Shown piece by piece: positions 2-14,457 of a stretch of 29,365 nucleotides of DNA. The DNA lies in the IMG/VR virus record IMGVR_UViG_3300020204_000268, positions 1-29,365 of that record; one strand, written 5' to 3'. A program made the position numbers and the translations under genes. This DNA comes from a virus. The notes under the pieces are model-generated. The model saw only the letters and a list, made by a program, of their open reading frames with translations, did no database searches and was not told where the DNA came from. Every line of letters starts with the position of its first letter. Position 1 is the stretch's first letter.

Positions 2-1234
2 TCAGTCTCAACAAATAATACGAGCACCAGCACAAGTACAACCACTAGCACTAGTACGGTGAACAGCACCAATACTAACACAAATAATAATGTAAACAGT
101 GGTACAGTAACTTACAATAACAACAATAACAATGTGCAAAGCGGCACAGTTACAAACATTAATCAAAACACCACAAACGGAACAGTCACAAACAATAATA
201 ACAATGTGATGAGTGGTGCTGTAACTTACACAAACAACAATGTGCAAAGTGGTACAGTTACAAACAATAACAATAATGTAAACACCTCAACAAACACCAA
301 CACAAACACAAACCATAACATTAATTCTGGCACTCAAACATTCAATAACAATAACGTGAGTTCCAGTACTTCTGCCAACGTTAACACTAACAACAATATA
401 AATTCTGGCACACAAACATTTAATAATAATAATGTGAGTTCTAGTAACAATGTTAATACAAATCACAATGTCAATTCAGGTACACAAACATTTAACAACA
501 ATAATGTTAGCACAAGCACCAGCACCAATACAAATCATAACATTAATTCGGGTACAATGACGTATAATAACAACAATGTCAGCACCAGTACCAACATTAA
601 CAAAAATGAAAATACTGGTACAATGACTAACATCAATCAAAACACCAATATTTCAGCCAGTGATAATACAAATAGAAATATCAGCACAAGCACAAGTCAG
701 AATACAAATGTAAATCAAAATATCAATTCTGGCACAATGACATATAATAACAACAATGTAAATGCAACGACTAGTACAAACACAAATGTAAATCAAAACA
801 ACAATACATCAACTGCAACAAATGTAAACCAAAACATTAATTCTGGTGAAATGACTAATCGTAATATCAATCAAAGTGAAATTACACAGAGAGTCATTCA
901 ACCTCCACCAACAGCAATTGCTCCTGCAATGATGAGCATGGGTTCAGACCTTTGCGTGACTGGCGTATCTGGTGCAACACAAACACAAGTTTTGGGTATC
1001 AGTTTTGGTGCTACAAAAAGAGATTATAATTGTGAGAGATTAAAACTTTCCAAAACTCTTTATGATATGGGTATGAAAGTAGCTGCTGTTGCAACTATGT
1101 GTCAAGACCGCCGTGTATTTGATGCCATGATGGCTGCAGGAACGCCTTGTCCATACGAAGGTAAAATTGGTGAAGAAGCTAAAGTTGCTTGGAATTCAAA
1201 TCCAGATAGAGTGCCTAGAGTAGTAAACGAATGA
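2..1234 (+). CDS. Asn/Thr/Ser-rich repeat protein, C-terminal part (5' end outside window)
   Basis: The frame is open to the left edge, with no stop between base 2 and the GTG at 59, so the true start lies outside the window. Most of the visible protein is built from repeats around [IV]xSGTxT[YFN]NNNNV, spaced about 12-14 residues apart at first and about 24-30 later, joined by alternating N/T/S runs. The last ~100 residues are of normal complexity and hold four cysteines (LCVTG, YNCER, TMCQD, TPCPY) with motifs such as MCQDRRVFDAMMAAGTPCPY. The repeat pattern suggests a beta-solenoid or fibre shaft capped by a conserved C-terminal domain, so a tail-fibre or adhesin role is plausible but inferred. 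The stop overlaps the next start (ATGA). I recognise no named family. Confidence 0.8.
   Translation, partial: SVSTNNTSTSTSTTTSTSTVNSTNTNTNNNVNSGTVTYNNNNNNVQSGTVTNINQNTTNGTVTNNNNNVMSGAVTYTNNNVQSGTVTNNNNNVNTSTNTNTNTNHNINSGTQTFNNNNVSSSTSANVNTNNNINSGTQTFNNNNVSSSNNVNTNHNVNSGTQTFNNNNVSTSTSTNTNHNINSGTMTYNNNNVSTSTNINKNENTGTMTNINQNTNISASDNTNRNISTSTSQNTNVNQNINSGTMTYNNNNVNATTSTNTNVNQNNNTSTATNVNQNINSGEMTNRNINQSEITQRVIQPPPTAIAPAMMSMGSDLCVTGVSGATQTQVLGISFGATKRDYNCERLKLSKTLYDMGMKVAAVATMCQDRRVFDAMMAAGTPCPYEGKIGEEAKVAWNSNPDRVPRVVNE
89..870 (+). repeat. Degenerate tandem repeats coding for SGTxT-NNNN units
   Basis: AAC/AAT-rich DNA repeats encode successive units such as NSGTVTYNNNN, QSGTVTNNNNN, NSGTQTFNNNN and NSGTMTYNNNN. 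The protein units are more alike than the DNA, because AAT/AAC and the third positions of ACN/AGN codons vary. That suggests selection on the protein rather than recent tandem duplication. The repeats end before the Pro-rich hinge near 897. Confidence 0.8.
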
Positions 1235-3144
1235 AAAACTTCTTTTTTGTTTTGATGATTTTTATATCGTCAATAACAAACGCTCAATCTGTGAACACAC
1301 TTGATCCAAATCAAGTTTACACTACAAATAATATTGTTCTTCCTACAAACCAAGGTGGTCCATCATCTTGGACGAATGGTATTTATCAAGATAATTTAAC
1401 TTGTTGGGCATTTGGTCTATTTGGATATTGTGGACCAAATCCAATAGTACGACCAGGAAATGATATAAATTTTTCTTATGGCCAAACGGACTTATATCAG
1501 ACGCGATCTGTGGCCAGCCTTTTTTCCAATCCTACAAAATTACAAATTAATGGTTATAATTTTGGTTTTACTGCTAAAAATGGAAATGGCTGGGATGATG
1601 GTAGAGTGGACCAATTGAATGCTTATGTAAATCTTTATGATCGCAATGGTGGCGTATTAGTAAGTAAAAATTATGATTTGAATTATAAATTCAATTGGAC
1701 GACATTTAATTATAATGAAACGTTTACAAAGCCCTATGCTGTAAATGATGTTGGAAATATTCGTTATGGTTTTGTAGGTAAAGATAACAATTTTTGGGCA
1801 GGACCATACGGACCAGAAATAAACAATATTAGTTTTTCATTAAAATACTCTGTTGATCCTTGTTCAATAAATGTATTAAGTTCACCAAGTTGTCCTGGTT
1901 ATATCAATGCAATCAATAGTTTGACACCAGCGCCATTGGTTACCTCAACTGAAGTTGTAACAAGTAGCACTATCTCAACAACGCTTCAACCTCCAACAAC
2001 AATATCACAAACGCCAGTTACATCAGTTGTTAATGCTGCTTTACCAACAAGTTCTTCACCAGCTAGCGCACCTGTTTTAGTTTCAACATCCTCAAACAAT
2101 AACAAAGAAACAACTGTAAATTCCAACAGTGTATTAATTGGTTTAAGTGTCGTGGCCAAAAATGCACAAAGAGAACAATCAATTGCAATGCAAGCTGCAC
2201 AAAATGCTGTGGCAGCCGCAGAACAAACTGCACAGTTGGCACAACAAGAAGCAGTAAATGTTGCTCAAGCTTCGGCTTCTCAAAGTATTGCCATGGCCAT
2301 GCCCACAACAACAAAAAGTGACTCAGCAACACAAAAAACTGACCAATCTAATGTATTGCCAATGACAAATTCATCAAATCAATTTGTGCAAAATATTCAA
2401 CCAATTGTTCAACCAAATACAAAAACAAATGAAAAAAATAATTTAAATAATTTTTCAGTAAACGCTGCTCAAGAGAGTTTTCAAAGTCAAAATTTGCCAA
2501 TAAGCACAATGATTCGTGAACAATCTGCAATTTTACAACCTCAAGTAACAACACCGGTTGTGCCGCAGAGACAAACTACAATTACACAAACACAACCACA
2601 AACAAGTTCTTTGCCAACTGTGGTTCAAGAACAAACAACGATTACACAAACACAAACATCATTTGCTTTATTACCACCACAACAATCACAACAAATAATT
2701 ACACAAACAATTCCAGTTTTTGTAAGTGATGCAGCACAAACACCTCAATCGTTTTTAAGTGTGAGCCAACAATCAATTTTTACAACAAATGATTTGACCA
2801 TATTTGAATCACAAAAACTTTTAACAGACAGAACAAATCCAATAAATGATATTATTGAAGGCCGAAATATTGAACTTCCAACAACTTCAACGATTCAACA
2901 AAAAACAACTGTAAATACGAATGTTTCTGATAACGAAATTTCAGGTAGTGTAAATATAAACAAAATGGCAACATCACCAGTTGGATACAATCAGTATTTA
3001 AGTTTCGTTATTGCAGATGCGTCTTTTTATGCTCCAAAAGAGATTTATAAAGGACAAAAAAATGTTGACAATGTTCGAGCATTAAGACGAATGAGCTCGG
3101 ATAGATTACATCAAGAAATGATAGATCAACAATATAGGAAATAA
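1231..3144 (+). CDS. Secreted phage protein with Sec signal peptide and low-complexity Q/T/S linker
   Basis: This 637-residue protein starts with a clear Sec signal peptide: MKN, a hydrophobic FFFVLMIFISS core, and a likely cut after SITNA. Residues about 20-215 form a Gly/Asn/aromatic-rich region, probably beta, with a few Cys (LTCWAFGLFGYCG, DPCSIN, PSCPGY). An Ala/Gln-rich helical stretch (about 300-350) and a long Gln/Thr/Ser linker follow. A conserved-looking end (about 580-637) contains FYAPKEIYKGQKNVDNVRAL and DRLHQEMIDQQY. I remember similar tails on proteins of other aquatic T4-like phages. It overlaps the preceding stop by ATGA and leads straight into the next gene, so co-translation is likely. 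Export to the periplasm or outer membrane is inferred from the signal; the function is unknown. Confidence 0.75.
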   Translation: MKNFFFVLMIFISSITNAQSVNTLDPNQVYTTNNIVLPTNQGGPSSWTNGIYQDNLTCWAFGLFGYCGPNPIVRPGNDINFSYGQTDLYQTRSVASLFSNPTKLQINGYNFGFTAKNGNGWDDGRVDQLNAYVNLYDRNGGVLVSKNYDLNYKFNWTTFNYNETFTKPYAVNDVGNIRYGFVGKDNNFWAGPYGPEINNISFSLKYSVDPCSINVLSSPSCPGYINAINSLTPAPLVTSTEVVTSSTISTTLQPPTTISQTPVTSVVNAALPTSSSPASAPVLVSTSSNNNKETTVNSNSVLIGLSVVAKNAQREQSIAMQAAQNAVAAAEQTAQLAQQEAVNVAQASASQSIAMAMPTTTKSDSATQKTDQSNVLPMTNSSNQFVQNIQPIVQPNTKTNEKNNLNNFSVNAAQESFQSQNLPISTMIREQSAILQPQVTTPVVPQRQTTITQTQPQTSSLPTVVQEQTTITQTQTSFALLPPQQSQQIITQTIPVFVSDAAQTPQSFLSVSQQSIFTTNDLTIFESQKLLTDRTNPINDIIEGRNIELPTTSTIQQKTTVNTNVSDNEISGSVNINKMATSPVGYNQYLSFVIADASFYAPKEIYKGQKNVDNVRALRRMSSDRLHQEMIDQQYRK

Positions 3145-3146
3145 AA

Positions 3147-3767
3147 ATGCCAGAAGAAATTAAAGATGTTAATAAAAAAATTGATGTTGCTGAAGCTGCA
3201 GTTAAAAAATATGCTAGTAAAGATACTGTTATTAGTATTGGCGGTTATGAATTTACGCCTGCTAAATTAATGGTTGCTGCGACACTTGTATCATCAACAC
3301 TTGGTGGTCTTTATGGTGCGTTTGAAGTATATAAAGACTACATCAGTATGAAAAAGAAAATTGCAGAATTTGTTTCGCCTGATTTATCTGAATATGATAA
3401 ACGATTAGCCGTTCTTGAAGGTGAAAGTCAAAAAACTAATGACTACACAAGAGACATTAAAAATGATTTAAAAAGTGATATTCGCCGTAATGAATCTGTA
3501 ACTGAACAGGTCGAAAGAAGTGTTAAAACAGCTCAACGTGAAACTGAAGCTGAGATGCGTGAGATGCGTAAAGCTGTTCGTGAAGATTTAGAGAAAGCAA
3601 GAACAGAAGCAAATGAAATTCGCCGTGATATGGAAAAAACACGCAAAGAAATTAACACCGAGTTTTCATCTGCACGCCGTGAAATTACCAAAGAAGTGGC
3701 TGATCTGAAGAAAGAAGTTGATAGTAAAATTCAAAAGGCAATGGATAATCCGTTAGCAAACAAATGA
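3147..3767 (+). CDS. Membrane-anchored coiled-coil protein
   Basis: This 206-residue protein has one probable membrane segment near residues 40-62 (LMVAATLVSSTLGGLYGAF). A very long charged region (about 85-200) follows, rich in Glu/Lys/Arg heptads such as REMRKAVREDLEKARTEANE, which reads as a continuous coiled coil. It begins three bases after the upstream stop, and its own stop overlaps the next start by ATGA. The shape (one membrane helix plus a long rod) is compatible with an envelope-spanning or lysis-related protein, but no family motif supports that. It is the third gene of the left cassette. Confidence 0.75.
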   Translation: MPEEIKDVNKKIDVAEAAVKKYASKDTVISIGGYEFTPAKLMVAATLVSSTLGGLYGAFEVYKDYISMKKKIAEFVSPDLSEYDKRLAVLEGESQKTNDYTRDIKNDLKSDIRRNESVTEQVERSVKTAQRETEAEMREMRKAVREDLEKARTEANEIRRDMEKTRKEINTEFSSARREITKEVADLKKEVDSKIQKAMDNPLANK

Positions 3768-4261
3768 TTGATCCAATCACAGCACTAGCTGGTATACAAT
3801 CGGCTGTTGCATTAGTAAAGAAAATATCTAAAACAGTAGATGATGTTTCATCTCTTGGTCCAGTTTTAGGTAAATATTTTGATGCTAAAAGCACAGCAAC
3901 AAAAGCAGTTGTCGAAGCCAAAAGAAGCGGCACTAGCTCTAGTATGGGTGCAGCTATTCAAATTGAAATGGCTTTGGATCAAACAAAACAATTTGAAAAA
4001 GAGTTACAACTTCTTTTTATGCAAGCTGGTAAAATTGATGTTTGGAATAATATCAAATCTAGAGCAGCTGCGATGGATTTAGAAATCGCTCGTGAAGCCA
4101 AAAAAGAAAAAGAATCTCAAATGAGAAGAAGGAAGAAGTTTTTTGAGGCTCTAGAGTTAATTATTGGTGTGACTATGCTTGTTATTGGTATTGGTGTTCT
4201 TGTATGGGGTGGTTATGAATTGTTGCAATATTGTAACACAACAAAAAGTTGCGGAAGATGA
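3764..4261 (+). CDS. Small membrane protein starting MIDPITALA
   Basis: This 165-residue protein opens with MIDPITALAGIQSAVALVKK. It has a Lys/Glu-rich helical middle with a basic patch (MRRRKKFFE) and a single strong membrane segment near residues 133-156 (LIIGVTMLVIGIGVLVWGGYELL), followed by a short tail with two Cys. Proteins with the MIDPI(T/S)A start, helical body and late membrane helix are common in aquatic T4-like phages, as I recall, and lack an agreed function. It overlaps the genes on both sides by four bases, so it is translationally coupled. A holin or spanin-like role is possible but not shown by any motif. Confidence 0.75.
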   Translation: MIDPITALAGIQSAVALVKKISKTVDDVSSLGPVLGKYFDAKSTATKAVVEAKRSGTSSSMGAAIQIEMALDQTKQFEKELQLLFMQAGKIDVWNNIKSRAAAMDLEIAREAKKEKESQMRRRKKFFEALELIIGVTMLVIGIGVLVWGGYELLQYCNTTKSCGR

Positions 4262-13468: not shown

Positions 13469-14120
13469 CTTTGAATTTGTAAAATTAAAATCACTAGACT
13501 ACGATCTTAAAGCAGTAACAACAGATGATGGAAGAGTGTACGAAACACCGACAGGTGAAAAGTATCCTTCCATCACTACTGTTCTTTCTTCTTATAACAA
13601 GAAAGCTTTGTTTGAATGGCGTGAGCGTGTAGGCGCTGAAGAAGCAAATCGTATTTCTCGAAAGGCTTCAAGTCGAGGCACAAAACTTCATACGATTTGT
13701 GAAAAATATCTTTTAAATGAATCTGACGGCATAAAGTTTAAAACTATGATGCCTGATACCAAAGAATTATTTCTTCAACTTAAACCACATATTGATGAAA
13801 ATGTTGGTCGTGTGTTTGGCATTGAACAAGCACTTTTTAGCCATCGATTGAAAATTGCTGGTCGTTGTGATTGTATTGCAGAATGGAATAATCAACTTTC
13901 AATTATTGACTATAAAACGGCTTCAAGAGAAAAAAGTGAAGACGGCATTTTAAACTATTTTATGCAATGCACTGCATACGCTGAAATGTTTGAAGAACGA
14001 ACTGAATTGCCAGTAAATCAGATTGTGGTTGCAATTGCAGTTGAAGACTCACAACCACAAATCTTTGTAAGGGAAAAGCATAAATACCTTAATGCGTTAA
14101 TGAATTATATTGCTGTATGA
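13461..14120 (+). CDS. PD-(D/E)XK exonuclease, RecB/Cas4-like
   Basis: The start is a TTG overlapping the phoH end by eight bases; no ATG gives a full domain. The 219-residue protein shows the nuclease motifs in order: an N-terminal PSITTVLSSY, SRGTKLHTICEKYL (H77), GRCDCIAEW (D137), LSIIDYKTA (D150, K152) and a downstream MQCTAYAEMF (Gln motif region). This is the PD-(D/E)XK arrangement of RecB/Cas4-type exonucleases. T4-like aquatic phages usually encode one. It likely works in recombination or host DNA breakdown. The permuted tmRNA starts directly after its stop. Confidence 0.85.
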   Translation: MRNFEFVKLKSLDYDLKAVTTDDGRVYETPTGEKYPSITTVLSSYNKKALFEWRERVGAEEANRISRKASSRGTKLHTICEKYLLNESDGIKFKTMMPDTKELFLQLKPHIDENVGRVFGIEQALFSHRLKIAGRCDCIAEWNNQLSIIDYKTASREKSEDGILNYFMQCTAYAEMFEERTELPVNQIVVAIAVEDSQPQIFVREKHKYLNALMNYIAV

Positions 14121-14400
14121 AGCAAAGAGAAAAGTGTTCTGGACGGCGGTTCGACTCCGCCCATCTCCACCAAGAGCATATTAGAAATAGTGTGTTGTTG
14201 CTGGGGATGAAATGGTTTCGACAGGGCAAATAGTAACAGAGTGGACAGCACGACACAGAGAGTCGTTAAAAGTAAATCAAGTAAATGCAAACGATGAAAA
14301 GTTCGCATTAGCAGCCTAAACACTGCTTAGGGTTCGGTGGGTTCCTCGTAACAGAATACCCACCATTTATTAAAACAAAATCCCAATCGCCGCAAGAGGC
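14121..14400 (+). ncRNA. ssrA: Circularly permuted (two-piece) tmRNA
   Basis: tmRNA rescues stalled ribosomes and tags incomplete proteins. Here the 3' tRNA half comes first: GGAC, the T-arm GGCGG-TTCGACT-CCGCC (14145-14161), the acceptor strand CATCTCC (14162-14168), A and an encoded CCA ending at 14172. After a 30-base intervening segment comes the 5' half, GGGGATG (14203-14209), which pairs with CATCTCC over 7 bp with one G-U, then the tmRNA-specific GGTTTCGACAGGG. The tag frame is at 14287-14319. A 7-bp hairpin GGTGGGT/ACCCACC (14336-14364) follows. No T-arm or CCA exists downstream, so the gene is permuted and would mature into an acceptor and a coding piece. Exact ends are uncertain; the 3' end may lie anywhere from about 14365 to 14435. 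Confidence 0.92.
14287..14319 (+). other. tmRNA tag-peptide reading frame (ANDEKFALAA)
   Basis: The resume codon GCA follows AGTAAAT; the frame reads ANDEKFALAA and stops with TAA (14317-14319). The ALAA end is the degradation signal recognised by ClpXP and related proteases. The AND(E)-start and ALAA-end style is that of beta and gammaproteobacterial tags. Confidence 0.92.
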
Positions 14401-14457
14401 AAATATTTTTTTATGAGACTTTTTAAAGTCTAGTGGGTAAACTATCTTGAAAGGAAA

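Follow-up and report, generated by a model that had tools for sequence, protein, structure and literature searches.

Among described systems, phage curli stand closest to the locus reported here. They belong to type VIII secretion (CsgF, CsgG, CsgA/B) and are represented by HTVC008M, HTVC023P-type phages and Melnitz. According to the literature, marine pelagimyophages and some HTVC023P-type phages carry curli genes, for which roles in sibling capture or superinfection defense have been proposed (PMC7029224, PMC9599517), and freshwater pelagimyophages are without the curli operon (PMC7029224); a role in lysis or its control has also been proposed for phage curli (PMC9004378). Three further systems resemble single parts of the locus: the β-helical phage tailspikes, for example K64-ORF41 (8x8m), the two-gene spanins of the Rz/Rz1 type, and Fbs1 and Fbs2 (FBXO2 and FBXO6), which are N-glycan-binding subunits of ubiquitin ligases.

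The locus comprises a module of three genes, here called A, B and C. Like phage curli, it pairs a β-repeat protein that appears to be exported with partner proteins, and it occurs in aquatic phages whose hosts are without these genes. Unlike curli, it has a four-cysteine C-terminal domain of its own in A, an FBA-like partner and a coiled-coil protein ending in NPL. The accessible part of open-licence PMC text yielded no description of the A module.

The window analyzed here is the whole stretch of 29,365 bases; record IMGVR_UViG_3300020204_000268 consists of this window alone, and the 5′ end of gene A lies beyond it. We take the window to be part of a T4-like phage, judging from reading frames whose products look like flap/RNaseH, PhoH, gp32 and baseplate proteins. 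Its tmRNA has beta_tmRNA as best Rfam match (149.9 bits), which hints at a betaproteobacterial host. Gene A heads an operon with B and C downstream (Table 1), and the protein cluster of gene D is found in 31 of 79 freshwater-type loci.

Table 1. Coordinates of the module genes, their predicted domains and the tmRNA within the window.
Feature	Position	Strand	Basis or remark
Gene A, open reading frame	2-1234	+	410 aa; runs off the 5′ edge of the record
Gene A, repeat region rich in Asn, Thr and Ser, aa 1-296, truncated 5′	2..889	+	12 motif copies, model strands, low dN, even spacing and parity
Gene A, four-Cys C-terminal domain, predicted β-hairpin and four helices	902..1231	+	pLDDT ~74-96 from residue 321; Cys columns; phrog_20531
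Gene B, second protein with export-type N-terminus	1231..3144	+	Open reading frame; start overlaps the A stop by 4 nt
Gene B, predicted jelly-roll domain aa 29-208, FBA (Fbs1/Fbs2) sugar-binding-like	1315..1854	+	Model, Foldseek, VIA, profile
Gene B, conserved C-terminal segment aa 561-635 (...FYAPKEIYKGQKNVDN...HQEMIDQQY)	2911..3135	+	Holds most of the invariant columns in the B alignment
Gene C, single membrane-like segment followed by a long coiled-coil, NPLANK at the C-terminus	3147..3767	+	Open reading frame
Gene D, C-terminal membrane-like helix, phrog_32327	3764..4261	+	Frequent extra member
tmRNA, phage-encoded	14080-14410	+	ARAGORN; tag ANDEKFALAA

A sequence-only reading of this stretch had described gene A as encoding a giant Asn/Thr repeat protein with dozens of units. 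The repeats are real: residues 1-296 of the window protein are 36% Asn, 22% Thr and 13% Ser, and the strict motif SG[TA]xT occurs nine times, against a mean of 0.09 and a maximum of 2 in 2000 shuffles. They amount to about a dozen units, not dozens, as a relaxed SG-type motif is found 12 times. Its spacings (14, 12, 12, 12, 26, 26, 24, 24, 22, 38, 38) agree with the described distances of 12-14 residues at the start and longer ones later, and self-similarity peaks at a lag of 24 (z = 12). Giant the protein is not. Alignment to its relative in locus L003, which is 86% identical and carries ~60 extra N-terminal residues with a signal-like start, indicates that ~60 residues including the signal peptide are absent from the window, so that full-length A is expected to have an ordinary ~470 aa.

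The conservation that the same reading suspected for the Cys-containing C-terminal domain is strong, with Cys columns invariant across 44 sequences. Window A matches the profile of phrog_20531 (E 7.4e-12 for the protein, 8e-14 for its C-terminal domain), a PHROG family that comes without function or described module. Neither the protein nor its C-terminal domain has a match in Pfam, in PADLOC or among PDB sequences; NCBIfam returned one irrelevant sub-threshold match only, and the nine significant matches in BFVD are all unnamed or uncharacterized.

What fold could such a repeat adopt? An AlphaFold2 model based on 85 sequences places successive strands of 9-10 residues along residues 25-215 (pLDDT ~51-76, mostly 65-76), followed by a disordered stretch (residues 228-300) and then by a C-terminal domain that combines a hairpin with four helices and in which pLDDT climbs from ~74 to 96. 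Disorder is thus predicted for one segment and not throughout. Structural alignment of the repeat with VIA ranks the tailspike 8x8m best (Z 11.1), ahead of a putative adhesin (4opw, 6.7) and tapirin (6n2b, 6.4), while a Foldseek search of the PDB returned no significant hit with A; unlike β-helical tailspikes, moreover, the relatives of A carry Sec-type export signals. The predicted strands and the β-helical character of the best-aligned proteins support the proposal of a solenoid-like shaft with varying distance between motifs, and we regard a β-solenoid-like repeat as probable. The four-Cys domain alone was barely covered in the structural comparison, so we make no claim of a new fold.

The clearest evidence of structure comes from the sequence itself, in the register of the repeat. 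Distances between SG motifs are even in all 214 cases from 61 proteins, which are related, so that the 214 are not independent events; among 40 non-redundant repeats they are even in 153 of 153, with 33 distinct values. Residues of one parity class are 39% Thr, 12% Val and 5% Ile. In the second class Asn accounts for 54%, Gly for 10.5%, Met/Tyr/Phe for 12% and Thr for 1.8%, and in the window protein Thr is split 60 to 4 between the two. An even register of this kind is what an uninterrupted in/out alternation of β-strands, connected by even-length turns, would give, with Thr, Val and Ile facing one way and Asn and Gly the other. The Thr-rich class has also been weighed as a solenoid face lined with Thr-x-Thr rows, which would make A a surface protein that binds ice or acts in another way not involving glycans. 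The composition of that face would suit such a role; marine groups whose spacers measure 23-71 residues, however, have the same module, and we give this explanation almost no weight.

Alternatively, the repeat could be a neutral low-complexity expansion beside a C-terminal domain that alone matters, its even spacing arising from slippage of 6-base dipeptide units. The spacer of A does range from 23 to 536 residues, and a few short hexamer runs are present. Set against this is the pattern of substitution: the repeat compared with that of L003 gives a dS of 1.22 and a dN of 0.098, and with that of L004 a dS of 1.43 and a dN of 0.080. These sequences indicate strong purifying selection on the repeat, dN lying ~12 to 18 times below dS. 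The Thr/Asn parity is moreover maintained over ~280 residues. Slippage may yield even indels, such as the 48-residue difference from L003, equal to four 12-residue steps, but it does not explain selection, which makes a neutral origin very improbable.

The C-terminal domain allowed the family to be followed widely. One query produced at least 600 matches in viral contigs, and with diverged members from named phages as queries the numbers of stretches confirmed were 335, 92 and 547. Of 329 matching loci 322 were kept, in which 311 A proteins are complete; all but one of these (310/311) have exactly four Cys in the opening 100 residues of their C-terminal domain. Median spacer length is 263 residues in the window's group, 30 in the HTVC115P group, 60.5 in the CRP-207 group and 68 in the HTVC033P group, and in some relatives the spacer is nearly missing. 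The named carriers comprise 11 records, namely HTVC115P, HTVC023P, HTVC202P, Mosig, HTVC033P, Baldr, CRP-207, CRP-810 and three environmental records. A scan of genomes of bacterial and archaeal species gave 19 places with A, all of them MAG, SAG or draft metagenome-bin contigs by title. By a coarse check C lies nearby in 14 of the 19 and B in five, for which reason these places look like the same viral module, which has been seen only in viral records and such virus-like contigs. Two alphaproteobacterial assemblies with single-cell style names, AG-910-K03 (L344) and AG-899-M17 (L347), carry the module and possibly stem from infected cells.

More distant relatives of A occur in the Achromobacter phages phiAxp-2, AXY1, 2-1 and vB_Ade_ART; that of phiAxp-2 is supported by an hhalign probability of 90.6 and by a match to phrog_20531 (E 1.4e-5). 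They sit among exonuclease, queuosine or polymerase genes, in vB_Ade_ART among queuosine and DNA-polymerase genes. Beside the relative in phiAxp-2 lies a gene for a Sec-like Gly/Ser-rich repeat protein (L459, 45219-45710, minus strand), and vB_Ade_ART, by its own annotation, has both the A relative and a Gly/Ser-rich repeat gene, in a different genomic setting.

In which compartment would such a protein work? Of the 311 complete A proteins, 306 have an N-terminus that is hydrophobic and Sec-like and includes an AxA-like site, as called by a hydropathy rule rather than by SignalP, and a rule of the same kind finds Sec-type N-termini in 177/177 B proteins and in 81/82 of B-prime, a protein of the CRP-207 group unrelated to B. 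A therefore shares with curli, as far as the hydropathy rule goes (306/311), the Sec-exported fiber subunit, and neither A nor B shows the cytoplasmic assembly without Sec signal that is typical of tail fibers. It is very probable that A is exported from the cell rather than built into the virion.

The suggestion that A is a virion fiber or decoration has to be judged in this light. It would account for the β-helix-like model, with a tailspike as best-aligned structure, and for a late-type promoter core upstream of A. TAAATA is the heart of T4 late promoters, and in the window's group it occurs in the 100 nt before A at 52 of 76 loci, compared with 0/71 for B, 2/72 for C and 137/752 for other open reading frames. 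In the other groups its frequency before A (HTVC115P 20/73, HTVC033P 13/82, CRP-207 0/77) is within or below the shuffle range, so a late-promoter-like core is enriched before A only in the window's group. The Sec-type N-termini of both A and its partner B speak against a place in the virion, as do the four conserved Cys, typical of an oxidizing compartment, and the near loss of the spacer in some relatives. We consider a virion fiber improbable, and the sequence-only reading is disfavored on this point.

B comes after A in 295 of the 322 loci, and C lies nearby in 250. With B as query, 22 new loci were found; A is present in 18, and in the other four the contig ends before A would become visible. 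In the Roseobacter group, an unrelated helical exported protein stands in place of B.

Residues 29-208 of B are modeled as a jelly-roll, mostly at pLDDT 85-98, whose best matches are the FBA domains of Fbs1 and Fbs2 (Foldseek E 7.8e-7; VIA Z 12.8 with 158 residues aligned). The profile built from 63 B proteins reaches FBXO6 at E 9.5e-4 in the loop GKDnnFWAGpYGP, the next hits being unrelated low-complexity proteins at 0.0035. Pfam FBA is matched by three of the 63 members, at best with 4.7e-4, and not by window B. B resembles Fbs1/Fbs2 in its predicted fold and in a GKDxxFWAGxYGP-like loop, and differs from them in being phage-encoded, exported by its N-terminus, and fused to a disordered Gln/Thr linker and a C-terminal segment of its own. 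Structural work reports that Tyr279 and Trp280 in the FBA-domain loop of Fbs1 contact GlcNAc-GlcNAc, and that FBG3 retains the sugar-contact residues yet binds no sugar (PMC4603797), which weakens a lectin role for B. We regard B as lectin-like in its predicted fold and its sugar binding as putative. A may still be an adhesin or bind polysaccharide, as once considered, but the sugar-binding-like domain of the model is in its neighbor and not in A itself.

A C-terminal membrane anchor of A was considered as well, owing to a hydrophobic tail in 50/77 and 64/73 proteins of two groups. Where B could be located in these groups, all 111 tails fall where the B start overlaps A by at least 40 nt, and none of the 28 proteins without such overlap has one, so the tail may in part result from overprinting with the signal peptide of B. 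Overlap by itself does not make a tail obligatory, since 74 of 77 overlapped A proteins of the CRP-207 group are without one. An example of shared coding is L007 (6341-6408), where the DNA of the A tail also encodes the B signal peptide in another frame.

C has a single membrane-like segment near its N-terminus, followed by ~143 aa with a coiled-coil, and 249 of 253 relatives have NPL within their final 14 aa. The 'lysozyme' genes of the Roseobacter phages CRP-810 (L087, 10210-10632) and CRP-207 (L088, 3292-3873) read as C-type membrane coiled-coil proteins ending in NPL; the one from CRP-207 has no lysozyme match in PHROGs.

The predicted layout of C, with its conserved end, resembles that of an inner-membrane spanin. 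It invites the explanation that A-B-C is an envelope machine of the lysis stage, in which C would act like such a spanin, B would hold sugars of peptidoglycan or lipid A, and A would span the periplasm and help rupture the outer membrane. Lysis-type genes are present in the fetched flanks of 96 of 322 loci (window's group 19/81, HTVC115P 24/74, Mosig 2/2, HTVC033P 42/83, CRP-207 9/82), flanks being of unequal length, many short, and without a matched control; the remaining 226 show none in those flanks. Eight freshwater-type loci have a spanin-like pair and a GH19 endolysin close to the module; at seven of these loci the endolysin gene shares its strand with A and stops no more than 88 nt from it. 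Replacement of the spanins had been our first strong idea; it was lowered once these pairs were found beside the module, as the module is not needed as spanin there. In further difference from Rz/Rz1, the module has no lipoprotein partner, a loose lipobox being found in just 24/311 A, 16/177 B and 0/82 B-prime proteins, and the Achromobacter relatives of A sit among other genes. We think a lysis machine unlikely, second though it is in our ordering. A cluster of small membrane-like proteins near A in 27 loci (for example L273, 4053-4484) looks holin-like by eye and matches only phrog_38283, whose function is unknown.

How does the module relate to curli in the genomes themselves? CsgG (PF03783) is absent from all 24 module-bearing records, some of them fragments, and present in 4/14 control genomes; the curlin repeat (PF07012) is likewise absent from the 24. 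Conversely, the module is found in none of 11 CsgG-bearing records (two of 146-147 kb, the others fragments) and in all three controls, and the 16 named records with CsgG do not overlap with the 11 with A. With CsgG pore and curlin repeat both absent, A is by its sequence not a curli member. The mutual absence in the records tested also suggests that the module is an alternative to curli, though it is suggestive only, given the small numbers and the differences between phage groups. A direct exchange at one locus, considered for HTVC008M, was rejected: curli genes lie there between the ssDNA-binding protein and the tape-measure gene, a place that is empty in the window.

Taken together, we favor the reading that A-B-C is an exported glycan-binding structure of the envelope or surface of the infected cell, working like curli but unrelated to them, and give it a probability of about 0.42; it ranks first, before the lysis machine and, third, the virion fiber. 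The A product would be made by the host cell late in infection and exported by Sec, not as a tail fiber. Its Asn/Thr region would fold into an extended β-solenoid-like stalk of variable length, and the four-Cys domain may anchor or assemble it. The probable ligand of the FBA-like domain of B is a GlcNAc-type glycan, either in the envelope or on neighboring cells, and the membrane coiled-coil C probably docks with its conserved NPL end on A or B, so that the three could build a structure that binds glycans within the envelope or on it. Read directly from sequence are the repeats with their parity and selection, the Sec-type N-termini of A and B, the gene order and the promoter-like core; the folds come from models, and surface location, ligand, docking and biological role we infer.

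Several observations count against this surface reading. No outer-membrane pore was identified that would carry A to the surface, B is swapped for an unrelated protein in the Roseobacter group, and the promoter core is enriched in the window's group only. The canonical-looking lysis cassette that immediately precedes A in several freshwater loci agrees equally well with lysis and with a role at the surface. For curli themselves, the study of phage Melnitz, which has curli genes, reports that infected cells did not clump (PMC9004378). It is a more far-reaching and doubtful claim that A-B-C, with its even-register solenoid and FBA-type lectin, is an undescribed, phage-only extracellular or envelope apparatus spread across unrelated aquatic phages, an independent counterpart of curli that replaces them and reprograms the infected surface.

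The C-terminal domain of A is very common in aquatic viruses, and the sources searched gave no described function for it. The role of the module is testable in cultured carriers of it or of an A relative, among them the pelagiphages Mosig and HTVC023P, Roseobacter phage CRP-810 and Achromobacter phage phiAxp-2. As a glycan-binding surface structure, the module would fill the niche of curli in other aquatic phages, through aggregation of sibling cells or exclusion of competitors. If it does alter the surface of infected cells, aggregation, superinfection and release would be affected in phages of abundant bacteria of oceans and lakes.
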